Part shown: in pieces, positions 25,730-33,525 of the stretch
Numbering within the stretch: the stretch's first letter is position 1
Layout: each line of letters opens with the position of its first letter
Source of the DNA: Desulforapulum autotrophicum
GTDB lineage: Bacteria > Desulfobacterota > Desulfobacteria > Desulfobacterales > Desulfolunaceae
Assembly (NCBI GenBank): GCA_020723285.1
Contig: DYJE01000009.1
Coordinates: 1 to 64,000 of the forward strand
Direction: 5' to 3'
Length of the DNA stretch: 64,000 nucleotides
Notes under the pieces: model-generated
The model's input: the letters and a program-made list of their open reading frames with translations, nothing else
Database searches by the model: none
Told to the model about the DNA's origin: nothing
Program-made: the position numbers and the translations under genes

Positions 25730-27436
25730 ATGTCCGAACCCGGAATTCATATTTTAATGGTCGACGACAATCCTTCGGCGCTGCGCCTGATGTCCGCCAT
25801 GCTGGCCAGGCAAGGGTACGGGATTGTGATGGCCCTTTCCGGAAAAGAGGCTTTCGAAGCGGTGCTGAGGCAGGATTTCGCGCTGATCCTCATGGATGTG
25901 ATGATGAGTGAAAAGAACGGATTTGAAACGGCGGAAAAGATCAGAGCCCATGCTATGAAAAGCCATATCCCCATTATATTCGTCACAGGGATTGAAAAGG
26001 ACCTGGCCTGGGAATTCAAAGGATACGAAGCCGGTGCCGTGGATTTTATATACAAACCCGTCAATCCCATGATCCTTCAAAGCAAGGTCCGTGTTTTCGC
26101 GGATCTTTATAATCGGGAAAAAAAATTGAAAGATGTGAACCGCAACCTCCAGGAAACTCTGGACGCTCTTCAGCAGGAATCGGAGGTGCGGCGGCGGATG
26201 GAAGAGGACCTCCAGCGGGTTGAGGAACAGTACAAATGCCTCCGGGATACCAGCAAGGATCTGGAGTGTCAGCTGAGGCAGGCACAGAAAATGGAGGCCG
26301 TGGGAACGTTGGCTGGCGGTATCGCCCATGATTTCAACAATATTCTGGCTGCCATCATGGGATATATCGAGCTGATCATGTTCGATGTGCCTGAAACAGG
26401 CTCCATCCGGCACAGTCTCGATCAGGTGCTTAAAGCGTCCCATCGGGCCAAGAAACTGGTGGGCCACATTCTTTCGTTCAGCAGGAGAAACAGCCATGAG
26501 AAAAAACCCGTCTACATTCAGCATATTCTGAAAGAATCCATCGAACTTCTGAGAGCCTCCATTCCAAGCACCGTGGCCATTCGGCAGGACATCTGCCCCC
26601 CGGTGAAATGCATCAAGGCCGATTCCACCCAGATTCACCAGATTATCATGAATCTATGCACCAACGCCTGTCATGCCATGGATGGCGATAACGGTACGGT
26701 GACCATCACCCTTGAACCCGTAAGTTTGGGTGAACTCAAACACCAGGCGATGATGGGCCTTGCCCCCGGTGATTACCTGAAACTGGGGGTGTCCGACACG
26801 GGACGGGGGATGGAGCCTCATGTGCTGAATCGCGTTTTCGAGCCGTATTTCACGACCAAACCCATCGGTGAGGGGACAGGCATGGGACTCGCTGTGGTTC
26901 ACGGCATTGTGAAAGCCCATGGAGGAACCATCGAAGTGGTCAGTGAGATGGGAAAGGGCAGCACATTTTCGCTGTATTTCCCTGTGGTGAATATGGATGC
27001 CGAAATGAGCGGGGAGGCTTGCGCGTCCATTCCCCAGGGGTCCGAGCGGGTCCTGCTGGTGGATGACGAGGAAGCCCTGACCGATATCGGTGCCAAAATG
27101 CTCAGGCGACTGGGATACCGTGTGGAGGCTGAAACGAAAAGTCTTGATGCCTACGAGAAATTCAGGAATGATCCTTCATCGTTCGACCTGGTGGTGACCG
27201 ACATGACCATGCCGGACCTTACCGGGCTCCAGCTGGCCCGGAAAATTCGGATGATCGCTCCGGATATCCCCATTGTGCTCTGCACGGGGTACCACAAGGA
27301 CATCAACATGTCCATCATCAAAGGATTCGGCATCGACCACCTGATGTTCAAGCCTTTAAAAATATCCGAACTGGCGGGTGTCATCCGCCGTCTGCTGGAC
27401 GAAAAGCCTCCGGAAAAGAGGTGCAGTCATGGATGA
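25730..27436 (+). CDS. Hybrid histidine kinase, REC-HK-REC
   Basis: 568 residues, soluble. An N-terminal receiver (phosphoacceptor Asp in ILMDVMM, residues about 8-125) is joined by a coiled coil to a HisKA domain with AGGIAHDFNNILAA, an HATPase (N box LCTNACHAM, GRGM, GEGTGMGLAVVHGI) and a C-terminal receiver (Asp in VVTDMTMPDLTG). It probably takes phosphate or a signal from another kinase at the first receiver and passes it to a partner via the second. AAGGAGAGG precedes the ATG. The next gene starts eight bases before its stop codon, so the two are translationally coupled. No cognate output regulator lies nearby. Confidence 0.92.
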   Translation: MSEPGIHILMVDDNPSALRLMSAMLARQGYGIVMALSGKEAFEAVLRQDFALILMDVMMSEKNGFETAEKIRAHAMKSHIPIIFVTGIEKDLAWEFKGYEAGAVDFIYKPVNPMILQSKVRVFADLYNREKKLKDVNRNLQETLDALQQESEVRRRMEEDLQRVEEQYKCLRDTSKDLECQLRQAQKMEAVGTLAGGIAHDFNNILAAIMGYIELIMFDVPETGSIRHSLDQVLKASHRAKKLVGHILSFSRRNSHEKKPVYIQHILKESIELLRASIPSTVAIRQDICPPVKCIKADSTQIHQIIMNLCTNACHAMDGDNGTVTITLEPVSLGELKHQAMMGLAPGDYLKLGVSDTGRGMEPHVLNRVFEPYFTTKPIGEGTGMGLAVVHGIVKAHGGTIEVVSEMGKGSTFSLYFPVVNMDAEMSGEACASIPQGSERVLLVDDEEALTDIGAKMLRRLGYRVEAETKSLDAYEKFRNDPSSFDLVVTDMTMPDLTGLQLARKIRMIAPDIPIVLCTGYHKDINMSIIKGFGIDHLMFKPLKISELAGVIRRLLDEKPPEKRCSHG

Positions 27437-27959
27437 GTGTTTTGTCAGAATGACCACATGCGTGCTGTGTTTGACGTTTCTTCTTGCTGGCCCTGCAAGC
27501 CATGGTCATTGCGAGAACACTCACCTTCGGAATGCAGCCTGGGGCATGAGCCGTTTCGATGTCATGGCCGGTGAGGATTTATCGCCGGAAACCTATGACG
27601 CCTATCATGTGCACTACAAAACCGAGCTGGATGGCCGCGAACAGGATCTGATATACGGTTTTTTCGAAAATATGCTGGTGGATGCGGTGTATGTTCTTAC
27701 TCTCGTCCAAAAAGGTGAGCAGGATGTTTTCAGAAAAAAACTTGAAAAAAAATACGGAAAGCCCCAAGGGGCGGAAAACGATGGAAAAGGCCTTTATCAC
27801 TACGTCTGGGAGACCAGAGACACCCGGATTGTCATGCGTCCGGGACGTCTTAAAGAGTGCAGAATAGAATACATCAGTAAAAAATACAGTTATCTGAAAG
27901 AACGGGAAGCCCGCACGGCCAGGGAACATGAGGAAAAAATCCAACGCTGGTCCTATTGA
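27429..27959 (+). CDS. Exported protein of unknown function
   Basis: 176 residues with a signal peptide (MTTCVLCLTFLLAGPASHGHC). The mature part has AWGMSRFDVMAGE, ELDGREQDLIYGFFENMLVDAVYVL, and KKYGKPQG, a pattern seen in small secreted proteins of deltaproteobacteria in which a W-G-M-S segment is followed by a beta-rich domain. No function is known. The ATG lies eight bases inside the end of the hybrid kinase gene, with AGAGGTG upstream, so both are expressed together; a periplasmic role in sensing is possible but speculative. Confidence 0.7.
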   Translation: MDECFVRMTTCVLCLTFLLAGPASHGHCENTHLRNAAWGMSRFDVMAGEDLSPETYDAYHVHYKTELDGREQDLIYGFFENMLVDAVYVLTLVQKGEQDVFRKKLEKKYGKPQGAENDGKGLYHYVWETRDTRIVMRPGRLKECRIEYISKKYSYLKEREARTAREHEEKIQRWSY

Positions 27960-28135: not shown

Positions 28136-28579
28136 ATGAGGAAAAAGTGTTTGGTGGGATTTTTGTTTCTGGCCATAGCCGGAATGGTTCTGTCCATTTC
28201 AGGACCCGCACTGGCGGGCGATCTTGTCATTATCGCCAACCGGAGCGTTCCCGTTTCGGAGATGTCGAAGACAGACATTCAGAACATCTACCTCGGTAAG
28301 AAGAAAGTCTGGGACAACGGGATGAAAGTTGTGGTGACTGCTTTGTCTGACGGTGATGTGGCGGACGCGTTCCTGAAAGACTATGTCAAGAAGAACTCCA
28401 ACACGTTCAACACCTACTGGAAGAAACAGGTGTTCACCGGTGGTGGAAAACCTCCGGAATCTTTCCAGAAGGAAAAGGATCTCGCGGAATATGTATCGAC
28501 GACCAAAGGTGCTGTGGGGTATGTTTCATCACAGTCGGTTTCGGACAATGTCAAAATCATACTGGTCAGCGGTGAGTAG
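28136..28579 (+). CDS. Phosphate ABC transporter substrate-binding-like protein (short)
   Basis: 147 residues: a signal peptide (cleavage probably after SGPALA) and a single PBP-like domain (LVIIANRSVPVSEMSKTDIQNIYLGKK, then GAVGYVSSQS). It is about half the length of PstS and corresponds to one lobe. Such short proteins are usually encoded next to a porin, as here, and are thought to bind phosphate or a similar anion in the periplasm. AAGGAGAGG precedes the ATG at 28136; the longer frame from 28067 is unsupported. No pst permease genes are nearby. Confidence 0.8.
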   Translation: MRKKCLVGFLFLAIAGMVLSISGPALAGDLVIIANRSVPVSEMSKTDIQNIYLGKKKVWDNGMKVVVTALSDGDVADAFLKDYVKKNSNTFNTYWKKQVFTGGGKPPESFQKEKDLAEYVSTTKGAVGYVSSQSVSDNVKIILVSGE

Positions 28580-28657: not shown

Positions 28658-29971
28658 ATGATGAATAGAAAGCTTGCTACTCTGATGGTTTTGCTCCTTG
28701 GCATGGCTTTATCCGGAAATGTCGGCGCCATTGAATTGAGCCAGACAGGAAAAGTCGACATTCATGGTTTTATCACGCAGGGATATCTGATGTCTGACGA
28801 GAACAATTTCCTTGCGGATACGGAAGGAAACGGAACATTTCAGTACAACGAGGCCGGCGTGAACTTCGCCAGTGACGTCAGCGAGCGTCTGAGACTCGGT
28901 GTTCAGTTCATCGCCCGCGATCTTGGTAAAGCGGGAAACAAGGAAGTCACCATCGACTGGGCCGTCGCGGACTACAGTGTGGCGGACTGGCTGAACGTGA
29001 GGGCCGGTAAATGCAAAATCTCACATGGTCTGTACAACTACGAACGTGACGTGGACATGCTCCGTACTTTCGTATTCCTTCCCCAGAGCGTTTACACCGA
29101 AGGCTGGCGGGATTCTGTCAACGCGCTGAACAGCGTGGGTGCCTACGGTTACGTGCCTATGGGTTTCGCCGGTAATCTGACCTATCATCTTGACCTTGGA
29201 AACTCCGGTATCAAAGTGGACGGCGGTGAAGTGCGACAACTCGAAGACACCATGCCCAAAGCCCTTGGTCTTGAGGTTACCGAAGTCGACACCGGAACAA
29301 CGTTTGGAAGCCAGCTTGCCTGGGATACAATCTTTGGTATAGATGGTCTTCGGGTTGCAGCAGGCGGGTTCAATTTCGAAATGGATGCAACATCGGATAT
29401 TTATGATGGAACAGGCGTTCCTCTCTACGATTCTTACGGGAACCAGAGTGGCACATTCAAGAACAAGGAAAGCCAGGTTTTCAACATGAAACTGCTCTCA
29501 ACCACAGGCTCCCTTGAATACGCTCGCGGTAATTTTATTTTCGCCGCTGAATACATGAACAACAATTACGAAATGAAACTCCCCACGACTGTCGCAGGGA
29601 CGATTCATAAAAAATTCGACGCCATCGGTTATTATGCCAGCATGGCATACCGATTCACCGACTGGCTGGAACTGGGAACATATTATTCAGAATATTACAG
29701 GGATAAAGACGACAAGGACGGTAAAAAAGCCGTTCAGGGCGGTGCCATGGCCCTCCTCCCCGCAGGCCAGGAACACGCCATGTGGCTCAAGGACCTCTGT
29801 CTGACCGCCCGTTTTGACATCACTCCCAACTGGATTTTCAAGATGGAAGGCCACATGATGGACGGCGCGGCCCTCATGTACACCAGTGACAACAACACCA
29901 ACGCCGCAGGTGCCGCGGATTACGAAAAAGACTGGTTCCTGTTCGCCGGAAAGGTGTCATACAGCTTCTAA
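28658..29971 (+). CDS. Outer-membrane porin-like beta-barrel protein
   Basis: 437 residues. A signal peptide (MMNRKLATLMVLLLGMALSGNVGA) is followed by ELSQTGKVDIHGFITQGYLMSDENNF and alternating polar/aromatic strands, ending in FAGKVSYSF with the C-terminal Phe of outer-membrane barrels. It should form a trimeric or monomeric channel; the substrate is unknown. ACAGGAGGTC precedes the start. It follows the short phosphate-binding-like protein and they are probably one operon. A strong terminator lies 24 bases after the stop. Confidence 0.82.
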   Translation: MMNRKLATLMVLLLGMALSGNVGAIELSQTGKVDIHGFITQGYLMSDENNFLADTEGNGTFQYNEAGVNFASDVSERLRLGVQFIARDLGKAGNKEVTIDWAVADYSVADWLNVRAGKCKISHGLYNYERDVDMLRTFVFLPQSVYTEGWRDSVNALNSVGAYGYVPMGFAGNLTYHLDLGNSGIKVDGGEVRQLEDTMPKALGLEVTEVDTGTTFGSQLAWDTIFGIDGLRVAAGGFNFEMDATSDIYDGTGVPLYDSYGNQSGTFKNKESQVFNMKLLSTTGSLEYARGNFIFAAEYMNNNYEMKLPTTVAGTIHKKFDAIGYYASMAYRFTDWLELGTYYSEYYRDKDDKDGKKAVQGGAMALLPAGQEHAMWLKDLCLTARFDITPNWIFKMEGHMMDGAALMYTSDNNTNAAGAADYEKDWFLFAGKVSYSF

Positions 29972-29994
29972 GAATTGCCGGATGATATCCACAG

Positions 29995-30025
29995 CGGCGC
30001 ATGATTAAGTCATGCGCCGTTTTTT
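29995..30025 (+). terminator. Rho-independent terminator of the porin operon
   Basis: A perfect 10-bp stem (29995-30004 with 30010-30019), a 5-base loop and six T. Confidence 0.9.
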
Positions 30026-30156: not shown

Positions 30157-31305
30157 ATGCAGAAAAAGGCTTTTTTTTCCATGTTCGCCGTGATCGCTGT
30201 GGTGATACTCGCTGTATCCGGAACAGCATCGGCCAAAGAGGTGAAAAGCTATGACGACCTTTACAAACAGCTGCCGGGGGGCAGCCCGAACAATGCCGGG
30301 GTCATTGACAGGGCCTTGACCAGCATGTCCAAAGTGCAGCAGATGCGTGAGGGCAAGATGGTGACCGTTGAAAAACCGAGAGATCTTCTTCTGATCAATC
30401 CACGTTTCCTTTCCATATCCTTTGACGCCGGTGTCCGTCCAAAAGGCGTGAGCGCCAAGGCCAAACCCACTCCGGCGGTATACGCCCTGCTGTTCGAGAA
30501 GGACACTAAAAATGAACTGACGTTTTACAAAAGCATATACCTTGTGTTTCAGGGTGACGAGGGGCTTGAGGAATACCGCACCATCACCCCTGAAAAAATC
30601 TGTGAGTATTACCGGGAAAAAGGGGCGGAATATGTGTTTCTGGACAAAAAATCCGAAGCGGCCAAACCCGAGGAAATCGTGCTGAACGGTTCTCATATCA
30701 AGTCGGGTATGATCGCCGAGCAGTTCATCGACAGTTCCATCACACGGGACAGTGAAATGAAAGAAGCCCTTGAAGGGTACGTGAAAAAGGAAGTGGAAAA
30801 AGTCAAGACGCCCGATGAAGCCATCAGGATCCAGCAGCTTGAAGCCCGAATCAAGAAACTGGAAAACCTTCTCGATAACGTGACACGCAAAGGCAACGAC
30901 ATCGTTTTCAGCAATGTCAACGTCATGATCAACAACGGATCAGGCACTGTGGCCCGGACAAACGGTACGGGCAACCTGGTGGTGGGTTACGATGATCCGG
31001 GGTCGGGGTCTCACAACGTGATCGTGGGCAGCAAAAACAGGTGCAGCTCCTACGGCGGCATTGTTTCAGGTTCAGGCAATTCGGTTTCGGGGAGTTACTC
31101 TGCGGTCGTGGGCGGCCAGGGCAACTCGGCGTCAGGTGACGGCAGCACTGTATTGGGTGGCCGGAACAACAGTGCAAGCGGTGCCTATTCCAGTGTCATG
31201 GGCGGAAGTGACAACAAAGCCAAGGGGGATTACACCGGGATCAACAGTCAGCGTGGCCGGACCAAGGTCAACGAAGGCGACAACAAGCATTTCCAGAACG
31301 ATTGA
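30157..31305 (+). CDS. Secreted protein with coiled coil and YadA-head-like repeats
   Basis: 382 residues with a signal peptide ending near SGTASA. Residues 30-200 form a domain I do not recognise; 195-245 are a predicted coiled coil (EALEGYVKKEVEKV, LEARIKKLENLLDNV). From about 270 to 360 there are four repeats with a strict 15-residue spacing (N308, N323, N338, N353), of the form NSxSGxxSxVxGG, as in the trimeric left-handed beta-roll head of YadA-type adhesins. Unlike a trimeric autotransporter the order is stalk then head, and there is no C-terminal membrane anchor. It may be a secreted or surface-attached trimer. A Gly/Ser-rich CDS of its own operon with the next gene, which starts 27 bases later. 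Confidence 0.8.
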   Translation: MQKKAFFSMFAVIAVVILAVSGTASAKEVKSYDDLYKQLPGGSPNNAGVIDRALTSMSKVQQMREGKMVTVEKPRDLLLINPRFLSISFDAGVRPKGVSAKAKPTPAVYALLFEKDTKNELTFYKSIYLVFQGDEGLEEYRTITPEKICEYYREKGAEYVFLDKKSEAAKPEEIVLNGSHIKSGMIAEQFIDSSITRDSEMKEALEGYVKKEVEKVKTPDEAIRIQQLEARIKKLENLLDNVTRKGNDIVFSNVNVMINNGSGTVARTNGTGNLVVGYDDPGSGSHNVIVGSKNRCSSYGGIVSGSGNSVSGSYSAVVGGQGNSASGDGSTVLGGRNNSASGAYSSVMGGSDNKAKGDYTGINSQRGRTKVNEGDNKHFQND

Positions 31306-31331: not shown

Positions 31332-33464
31332 ATGTCGAAAAAATGTTTTTCAGCCATGAGTGTGGCGTTATTGTTTTGTGCTGTCATGGCCCAAACAGTT
31401 TTTGGCGAAGAGAAAAAGATCGGGGATATGGATCACCGCAGCGGCAAGCTCGGATCGTTTCATGCCCTGATCATTGGGATCGATACCTACAAAGACGGCA
31501 AGATTCCCGATGTTAAAAATGCCACCCGCGACGCGGCGGAATTCGGAGCCGTTCTTAAACGGAATTATGGTTTTTCCACCCAGATGCTCTTCAATGGCAA
31601 GGCGACCAAAGACGCCATCGGCAACGCCATCAAATCTGTCGGTTCACGTGCCGGAAGAAACGGTTCGGTGGTCATCTTTTTTGCGGGACAGGGGATGACC
31701 GACGCCTCAGGTGCCAGGGGATTCTGGTATCCCTACGACGCCAAGGCAGGGGATGAAACGACGTATCTTGCCAATGAAGCCGTACAGGCCATGGTGGCGG
31801 AAATGAAAACCCGGTCCGTGCTGGTCATTTCGGATTCGGCTTACGCCGATACCTATTTCGGTTCGGTGCACAAACTGCCCGACGAGATTGACGAGCGTTA
31901 CTATCTGGGTATCTATAAAAAACAGGGCCGGTGGGGGTTCTCTTCGGGGAACGATTCTCCCCGGAACAGGTTCACCGATGTGATAACAACGGCTCTTGCT
32001 GAAAACGAACAGCCCCAGATTTCCCTTCAGGAGCTTTACGAAAAAGTGAAGCCCGGTATTTCCGCCGGGGCCAGAAAACCTCCCCGGTGCCGGTCGTTGC
32101 GGAACGCAGGGGATCAGGGTGGACTTCCGGTGTTTGTCCTGGTTCCGGCCATCCTCAAAAAAATTGAGGACAAGAAACTCCTGGAAGCTAAAAAGGACGG
32201 GTTTCTCAATGCGCCCCTGGAAGAAGGAAATGTCATCTCCCTGGTGGTGAATGTGGCCGACGCCCTGATTGTTTTCGACGGTGCGGTCATGGGCAAGGGC
32301 GGTGTGGTCAAGATTGCCGCCATGCCGGGCAACCATCTCATTGAAGTGAAAAAGGAGGGTTACGAACCGTTCAAGCGGGCTGTTTTTCTGAAAAAAGAGA
32401 CACCGCTCGCAGTGACCGCCGATCTGAAAAAAATCGTGATCAAACCCACCAAAGGAACGCTGACCCTCACTGTCCAGCCCGCCAATGCTGAAATCCGTTT
32501 TACAGGTATCCAGGTGCCCTACACACCCGGCATGTCCCTGGAAGGCGGCACGTATCAGGTGGAGGTTTCCGCGCCGTTTTATGAAAATGAAACCCGTGAC
32601 ATCTCGGTCAAAGTGAGCGAAAACAATGTCCATACGTTCAGTCTCAATCCGCTTAAGGTCATTCATCACAAGACTCTCGGGAATTTCATTCTGGTGAATC
32701 CCGGTTCCTTTATCATGGGAAGTCCTGACAAAGAATCGGCCATGCGGAACGTGAACGAAAAACAGCATACCGTCACACTGACCAGGCCTTTCTACCTCCA
32801 GGAACACGAGATGACCGTGGCACAGTGGAGCTGGTTCGTGAAGTCTGCGAATTTCAAATCCGAAGCCGAAGCGGGTGACGGATCGTTCGTTCTGGTGGAT
32901 TACAACTGGGAAAAGGATTCGGAGTATAACTGGCGTGTGCCTGGTTTTACGCAGAACGACAAGCATCCGGTAACCTGTGTGTCCTGGAATGACACCCAGG
33001 CCTTTGTCAAGTGGATCAACAAGAATGAAAAAGGCGTGTACACCTTCCGCCTTCCCACGGAAGCGGAATGGGAGTATGTCTGCCGGGCCGGTTCAAAGGA
33101 TCGATTTTCTTTCGGCCCGTGCCTGTTGAAAACCCAGGCCAACTTTGACGGCAACTCGAAATGGGAAAACTGCCCCTTGGGTGAAAGCAGCAAAGGCACC
33201 GTGGAAATCGGAAAATATCCGGCCAACGCCTGGGGTTTCTTCGACATGCACGGAAACGTCATGGAATGGTGTCAGGACTGGCTGGGCAATTACCCCGACG
33301 GCACGGTCCAGGACCCCGTTGGCCCCCAGACCGGAACGAGCCGGGTGATAAGAGGCGGCGGCTGGACAAGTTACGCCTACAATTCCCGTTCGGCGAAACG
33401 CTATAGCCGCAGTCCCAACGAAAGCTACAGCGATACGGGGTTCAGGCTGGTTATCGAACCCTGA
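31332..33464 (+). CDS. Exported pseudo-caspase / PEGA / FGE-fold protein
   Basis: 710 residues with a signal peptide (MSVALLFCAVMAQTVFG). Residues 40-250: caspase-like (peptidase C14) fold beginning FHALIIGIDTYKD. In the usual FFAGHG motif the catalytic His is replaced by Gln (FFAGQG, Q120), and in SDSCYSG the catalytic Cys is replaced by Ala (SDSAYAD, A170), so protease activity is not expected. Residues about 300-440: two PEGA-like beta domains. Residues 450-710: formylglycine-generating-enzyme/SUMF fold (FILVNPGSFIMGS, LPTEAEWEYVCRAGS, HGNVMEWCQDW, RVIRGGGW), also without the active-site cysteines of true FGE. AAAGGA lies before the start. A binding or scaffold protein of the envelope is more likely than an enzyme. 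Confidence 0.85.
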   Translation: MSKKCFSAMSVALLFCAVMAQTVFGEEKKIGDMDHRSGKLGSFHALIIGIDTYKDGKIPDVKNATRDAAEFGAVLKRNYGFSTQMLFNGKATKDAIGNAIKSVGSRAGRNGSVVIFFAGQGMTDASGARGFWYPYDAKAGDETTYLANEAVQAMVAEMKTRSVLVISDSAYADTYFGSVHKLPDEIDERYYLGIYKKQGRWGFSSGNDSPRNRFTDVITTALAENEQPQISLQELYEKVKPGISAGARKPPRCRSLRNAGDQGGLPVFVLVPAILKKIEDKKLLEAKKDGFLNAPLEEGNVISLVVNVADALIVFDGAVMGKGGVVKIAAMPGNHLIEVKKEGYEPFKRAVFLKKETPLAVTADLKKIVIKPTKGTLTLTVQPANAEIRFTGIQVPYTPGMSLEGGTYQVEVSAPFYENETRDISVKVSENNVHTFSLNPLKVIHHKTLGNFILVNPGSFIMGSPDKESAMRNVNEKQHTVTLTRPFYLQEHEMTVAQWSWFVKSANFKSEAEAGDGSFVLVDYNWEKDSEYNWRVPGFTQNDKHPVTCVSWNDTQAFVKWINKNEKGVYTFRLPTEAEWEYVCRAGSKDRFSFGPCLLKTQANFDGNSKWENCPLGESSKGTVEIGKYPANAWGFFDMHGNVMEWCQDWLGNYPDGTVQDPVGPQTGTSRVIRGGGWTSYAYNSRSAKRYSRSPNESYSDTGFRLVIEP

Positions 33465-33490
33465 TTTCAGGGATGAGTGTGGTATCATTG

Positions 33491-33525
33491 AAGCCCCCCG
33501 GATGAACGTCCGGGGGGCTTTTTTT
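33491..33525 (+). terminator. Rho-independent terminator
   Basis: A perfect 12-bp GC-rich stem (33491-33502 with 33509-33520), a 6-base loop and a run of seven T counted from the stem end. It ends the operon of the YadA-head and pseudo-caspase proteins, 27 bases after the stop. Confidence 0.92.

Follow-up and report, generated by a model that had tools for sequence, protein, structure and literature searches.

A Pseudocaspase-PEGA-FGE-like Protein of Desulfobacterales Linked to a Conserved Gene Cluster

Introduction

In the parts of a published survey that deal with pseudo-orthocaspases, 858 of 9,994 bacterial orthocaspases are assigned to this group, with 90% from Alphaproteobacteria or Cyanobacteria (Front Plant Sci 2019, PMC6426788). 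The same parts describe one architecture for each type of substitution and an Asp pair of the S1 pocket that is kept (PMC6426788). Fusions of metacaspase and FGE-sulfatase domains have also been reported, and the main text of that report counts FGE in 33 sequences, or 4.9% (PLoS One 2012, PMC3501461). Bacterial pseudocaspases are numerous, but only for a few does the gene neighborhood hint at what they do.

Here we describe a predicted pseudocaspase encoded in a stretch of 64,000 nucleotides from Desulforapulum autotrophicum (GCA_020723285.1, contig DYJE01000009.1, positions 1 to 64,000 of the forward strand), referred to as the window. The original prediction, made from the sequence alone, had read it as an exported three-domain protein in which both enzymatic folds are inactive and had proposed a selected, non-catalytic role. 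It had missed the conserved gene cluster in which the protein is encoded, which is the strongest evidence that we present.

Results

Domain Organization and Predicted Fold

The pseudocaspase-PEGA-FGE-like protein (31332..33464, + strand; 710 residues), delineated from its open reading frame, domain matches and structural model, is presumably exported. Its reading frame starts with the ATG at 31332, and an in-frame TTG is also found at 31302. A putative N-terminal export signal at residues 1–25 (31332..31406, +) was read by eye, and the model has a helix at residues 2–24. Following this are a caspase-fold domain whose dyad is lost (residues 40–271; 31449..32144, +), a PEGA domain located by Pfam (residues 307–367; 32250..32432, +), a second β sandwich at approximately residues 374–437 (32451..32642, +), which appears in the model and gives a weak CarboxypepD_reg match below the cut-off, and an FGE/C-type-lectin-like domain without the copper-site Cys (residues 451–707; 32682..33452, +). 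Pfam matches Peptidase_C14 at residues 44–188 (8.3e-12), PEGA in two stretches (8.6e-14; 51.6 bits versus a gathering cut-off of 20.8) and FGE-sulfatase at residues 451–707 (1.6e-50).

The AlphaFold model of the 710-residue protein has a mean pLDDT of 70, with most of the caspase core at 80–95, and predicts that the caspase fold is intact. The best solved-structure match of residues 40–271 is the MALT1 paracaspase, a caspase plus Ig protein (Z 21.8, rmsd 2.4, 182 residues, 16% identity), and in both proteins a β sandwich comes after the caspase domain. MALT1 keeps its dyad, unlike the window protein. Residues 439–710 of the model match PvdO (Z 25.5, rmsd 3.1, 240 residues). Together, the Pfam and structural matches identify a caspase fold, PEGA and an FGE fold within one protein, and the three-domain make-up of the original prediction is borne out.

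At the C terminus, the copper-site cysteine pair of FGE is missing although the FGE fold is present (Pfam; Z 22): in the alignment, the stretch RGGGW...GFRL has no Cys where bacterial FGE carries its pair. The closest structural matches of this end include non-FGE proteins, namely PvdO, T. denticola variable protein 1 and PorK (PorK/GldK), all with the same FGE/C-type-lectin fold (Z 22–25), and the missing cysteines are therefore less telling than the original prediction took them to be. PvdO and PorK/GldK are not equivalogs of the window protein, as its NCBIfam scores fall below the cut-offs (124 versus 500 bits for PvdO and 92 versus 350 bits for GldK). The original prediction is supported in that both enzyme signatures are absent. 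The FGE domain is better conserved than the caspase domain, with a mean identity of 0.50 versus 0.36 and 50/270 versus 12/232 invariant positions. This lectin-like domain is the likelier candidate binder of the two.

The Catalytic Dyad and the S1 Pocket

Alignment with active homologues puts Q120 (CAG; 31689..31691, +) in the catalytic His column and A170 (GCT; 31839..31841, +) in the catalytic Cys column, as the original prediction had it. Structural comparison confirmed the caspase and FGE folds, and the placement of the two residues comes from the sequence alignment and the strand order of the model. On this alignment, the catalytic His and Cys of active orthocaspases are absent, and the substituted p20 dyad classes the window protein as a pseudo-orthocaspase. 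Chance or a sequencing error is excluded because the orthologues likewise lack the dyad; a paralogue in the same genome keeps it (GHG, DSCYSG). An alternative His/Cys pair was sought in the sequence of the caspase domain of the window protein, where the only such residues are H44, H180 and C253, none of them at the dyad positions. C253 was considered as a substitute catalytic residue and is probably not one, as it is also present in active relatives (e.g., L116, L117, L126).

In the 13 copies of the gene that adjoin a β-roll gene (see below), the His/Cys columns hold S/A in four copies, Y/S and A/P in two each, and R/T, Q/A, S/S, K/gap and A/V in one each. A/V is also seen in a fourteenth linked copy, which came from the family search alone. 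In L124 the Cys loop is deleted. The S1 residues D67 and D168, located from the metacaspase pocket as given in the relevant part of PMC6426788 and from our own alignment, are both present in the window protein. Among 11 orthologues, D67 is kept in five and lost in six, and D168 is kept in eight. The drift of the residues at the dyad positions and in the S1 pocket argues against a conserved binding site there, and the pseudo-active site is probably not a shared ligand pocket. The expectation that Q and A would be conserved in homologues therefore fails, with an S1 pocket that is not clade-wide either, and the notion that the altered active site is itself meaningful is unsupported, since its residues are not conserved.

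Distribution and Phylogeny

The family search gave a match in 7 of 8 genomes. At the class level, no more than four candidates were scored in any one genome, and 84 of 389 genomes matched a caspase-plus-PEGA model with an E value of 1e-30 or lower; the β-roll gene, searched independently, was found in 22 of the 389. Of the match rows, 130 were read, and seven partial matches were left out (G375:C232, G233:C46, G148:C263:15309, G148:C94, G042:C246, G372:C133:1986, G044:C250:3127). His and Cys are both in place in 106 of the 130 matches and not in 24, 13 of which adjoin the β-roll gene. Indeed, both dyad residues are gone in all 13 β-roll-adjacent caspases of the 389 genomes, whereas among the 117 unlinked caspases the dyad is kept in 106 and both residues are lost in 3. 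A Fisher test of dyad loss in linked versus unlinked copies gives p of about 2e-15, a value that does not reflect independent losses because the 13 linked copies form one clade.

In a FastTree analysis of 129 caspase domains, the 13 linked copies form a clade with low node support (0.268), and these copies and 16 active relatives are grouped at 0.994. IQ-TREE (38 sequences, 349 columns including PEGA) places 13/13 in one clade (96.5/97) and gives 94.7/88 for the 16 active relatives, with a weak node (45.3/67) joining these to the 13 dead copies. The trees are most simply read as a single loss of the dyad in a common ancestor. A first scan of viral contigs returned zero caspase relatives, and further viral-contig scans returned 71 loci, with 12 ORFs fitting the caspase model. 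L362 and L365 (IMGVR_UViG_2509601030_000018, classed viral) carry a caspase with intact GHG/DSC fused to an FGE-type start.

A second pseudocaspase family of the same order is independent of the β-roll-linked clade. At its 11 unlinked loci the Cys is lost in 11/11 and the His kept in 8/11, and in the FastTree analysis it forms its own clade (0.999). The 10 loci that were read (set L397–L406; for example L397:4151-6880 and L401:4860-7568) encode proteins of ~830–910 aa that combine a caspase domain with long Ig-like repeats. A C-terminal Lcl_C domain, which we take to be DUF1566-type, is found in two of three proteins scanned and is absent from L405. At L397, the one locus scanned for neighbors, the gene adjoins those of a PP2C phosphatase and of a Ser/Thr kinase that carries an FGE domain, and like neighbors are seen by similarity at most other loci of this family.

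A Conserved Cluster of Four Genes

The cluster has the order short PstS-like (PBP-like), porin, β-roll, pseudocaspase. In the window, the genes preceding the pseudocaspase encode a short PstS-like (PBP_like_2) protein, predicted to be periplasmic (28136..28579, +, with a longer ORF from 28067), a porin-like protein, named as an outer-membrane barrel from its sequence character (28658..29971, +), and a β-roll partner with an export signal read by eye and a coiled coil followed by GxxNxxSG-type repeats (30157..31305, +). Across 14 loci compared, the β-roll gene is present in 14/14, the pseudocaspase in 13/14, and the PBP-like and porin genes in 13/14, the misses falling at contig ends (L181, L119). 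The genes flanking the cluster vary by family: a hybrid histidine kinase/response regulator (25730..27436, +) and a small, putatively exported protein (27426..27959, +) are neighbors solely in the window's own family, and in other families the flanking genes, named from sequence character, presumably encode a PurC-like protein, a GTPase resembling MglA or a periplasmic binding protein. The cluster is therefore not mere long-range synteny. In several families (L123, L124, L191, L192, L181), the genes near the cluster include those of the putative MglA-like GTPase, of a small companion protein and of the putative periplasmic binding protein. No partner genes were found at the six active loci of the same architecture that were read, several of which lie on short contigs (L116, L117, L120, L122, L125, L126).

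A terminator-like hairpin lies between the porin and β-roll genes (29993..30021, +; 13 pairs, T tail), and another lies 3′ of the pseudocaspase gene (33490..33521, +; 14 pairs, T tail). The porin/β-roll hairpin is present in 6 of 11 loci tested, and the gap between the PstS-like and porin genes has no terminator in the six loci tested. The four genes may therefore be two transcription units, and a simple four-gene operon is weakened as a description; the cluster may give two transcripts or one that is attenuated, with the hairpin as a possible attenuator. Comparison of the porin-like protein with Pfam, NCBIfam and PDB sequences gave no match, and porin relatives alone are common, occurring in 38 of 146 genomes of the order. 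The PstS-like protein gives a fragment-sized PstS match (NCBIfam 22.3 bits versus a cut-off of 206.6).

The β-roll protein ends in a conserved N[PK]HF C-terminal tail in 10/10 β-roll rows, with a conserved Arg ahead of this motif, and the tail (31280-31305 in the window) is a possible recognition signal. The AF2 model of the β-roll protein is too poor for use (mean pLDDT 36.9). The β-roll family also occurs without the pseudocaspase (L177, L178, L179, L183, L184, L187), and the pseudocaspase partner is therefore not required. HEAT-repeat proteins adjoin the β-roll relatives at L179, L184 and L187, and at L183 the relative lies beside a LamG-like protein in a locus that also has porin and PstS-like genes. 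The same porin type is found next to the alternative β-roll pair at L183 and L187, which suggests an interchangeable partner slot. At the phylum level, β-roll matches outside the order cover mainly the repeat part, with two same-order genomes as exceptions.

Selection on the Two Domains

Purifying selection acts on the caspase domain, as comparisons of close relatives show. Its dN/dS is 0.098, 0.089, 0.090 and 0.059 in four overlapping pairs from a single genus, and a fifth pair (L123/L191) gives 0.256, a weaker constraint, while the FGE domain gives 0.121, 0.105, 0.142, 0.120 and 0.089 across the five pairs; dS is near saturation in some of them. Thus, the fold is retained even as the dyad drifts, together with part of the S1 pocket. 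The 13 linked copies represent six families of the order, and none of these copies contains an internal stop codon. The absence of the enzyme signatures and the purifying selection together make a selected, non-catalytic role of the caspase domain likely, and to this extent the role originally proposed is supported.

Discussion

We favor, with a probability of roughly 0.45, the interpretation that the conserved four-gene cluster encodes an exported assembly of the envelope, of which the protein is a non-catalytic subunit. An exported and probably active caspase-PEGA-FGE protein would have come to lie beside the β-roll gene product in the genome, and the ancestor of the linked clade would have lost both catalytic residues. 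Since then the caspase fold would have served as a structural or docking module, most probably for its cluster partner, with the PEGA sandwiches as spacers and the FGE/C-type-lectin-like domain presenting a conserved ligand-binding face. The cluster products would presumably contact one another at the outer membrane. These considerations suggest that a protease fold has been put to use as a structural component of an assembly at the outer surface.

Of the other explanations, a porin-linked unit for nutrient uptake (e.g., phosphate or another anion), in which the β-roll protein and the pseudocaspase would be accessory binders near the pore, appears the least improbable, and we still consider it doubtful. 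The adjacency of the PstS-like and porin genes, uninterrupted by a terminator, and the recurrence of this pair with another binding-type protein, the LamG-like one, are consistent with it, but the PBP-like protein resembles PstS only over a fragment, at a score far below the cut-off, and the porin matches no named family. Slightly less credible to us is a pseudo-active site that serves as a decoy or peptide-binding groove, recognizing basic substrates without cutting them. The window protein does keep D67 and D168, as do the published pseudo-orthocaspases in the parts of the survey that treat this pair (PMC6426788), and the β-roll tail, with its conserved Arg ahead of N[PK]HF, is a conceivable basic ligand. 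Such a groove is hard to reconcile with the patchy retention of these two Asp residues among the orthologues, with the unrelated residues at the His and Cys positions, and with L124, which lacks the Cys loop.

That same deletion, the drifting active site and the lower identity of the caspase half could instead indicate a decaying relic, tolerated since the FGE-like domain does the work. This is improbable and largely refuted by the measured constraint: dN/dS is 0.059–0.256, stop codons are absent throughout the linked copies, and the fold is predicted to be intact. The FGE/C-type-lectin fold and the match to T. denticola variable protein 1 also brought to mind the target of a diversity-generating retroelement, with a hypervariable C-terminal face. 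We rejected this explanation as extremely improbable: no template repeat was found in the window at 25–45 kb or in its own genome (97% complete), and the stretch that would have to vary is almost unchanged in a 60%-identical orthologue (L051). Furthermore, the one reverse-transcriptase match in this genome is split and lies on another contig (G000:C28:40133-40503; L001, L002).

The subunit interpretation can be extended, more tentatively, to a previously undescribed modular envelope machine made of a short PstS-like protein, a porin, a β-roll fiber and an interchangeable scaffold, in which a protease fold would have been converted once into a permanent structural part. The scaffold slot would be filled in other genomes by HEAT-repeat or LamG-like proteins. 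Within the order, a second caspase fold would have been disabled independently and fused to Ig-like repeats and a C-terminal Lcl_C domain, beside a Ser/Thr kinase and PP2C, and caspase folds would then be repeatedly reused as scaffolds for lectin-like sensors. With a dyad loss that maps to one clade, constant partners and active relatives of the same architecture, the role of a dead caspase becomes directly testable here, and if the subunit interpretation is true, a protease fold has been reused in the cell envelope.

A search for literature on this gene cluster found none among open-licence PMC papers, a scope within which absence from print is not shown. The closest described proteins are the pseudo-orthocaspases, with which the window clade shares a p20 caspase fold, a substituted His-Cys dyad with one or both residues lost, and the formation of clades (described in part of PMC6426788). 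Unlike those published there, it combines one architecture with eight dyad types, does not keep the S1 Asp pair clade-wide, looks exported and sits in a fixed cluster of putative envelope genes. The metacaspase-FGE-sulfatase fusions resemble it in having caspase and FGE domains within one bacterial protein; unlike them, as far as the main text of that report goes, the window clade has lost the dyad and has fixed partner genes, and PEGA has 0 occurrences in that text (PMC3501461). Pseudo-orthocaspases and caspase-FGE fusions are thus already known from these sources, and what is new here is the lineage, a PEGA architecture that lacks the dyad, a pocket that drifts and the conserved cluster of predicted envelope genes.
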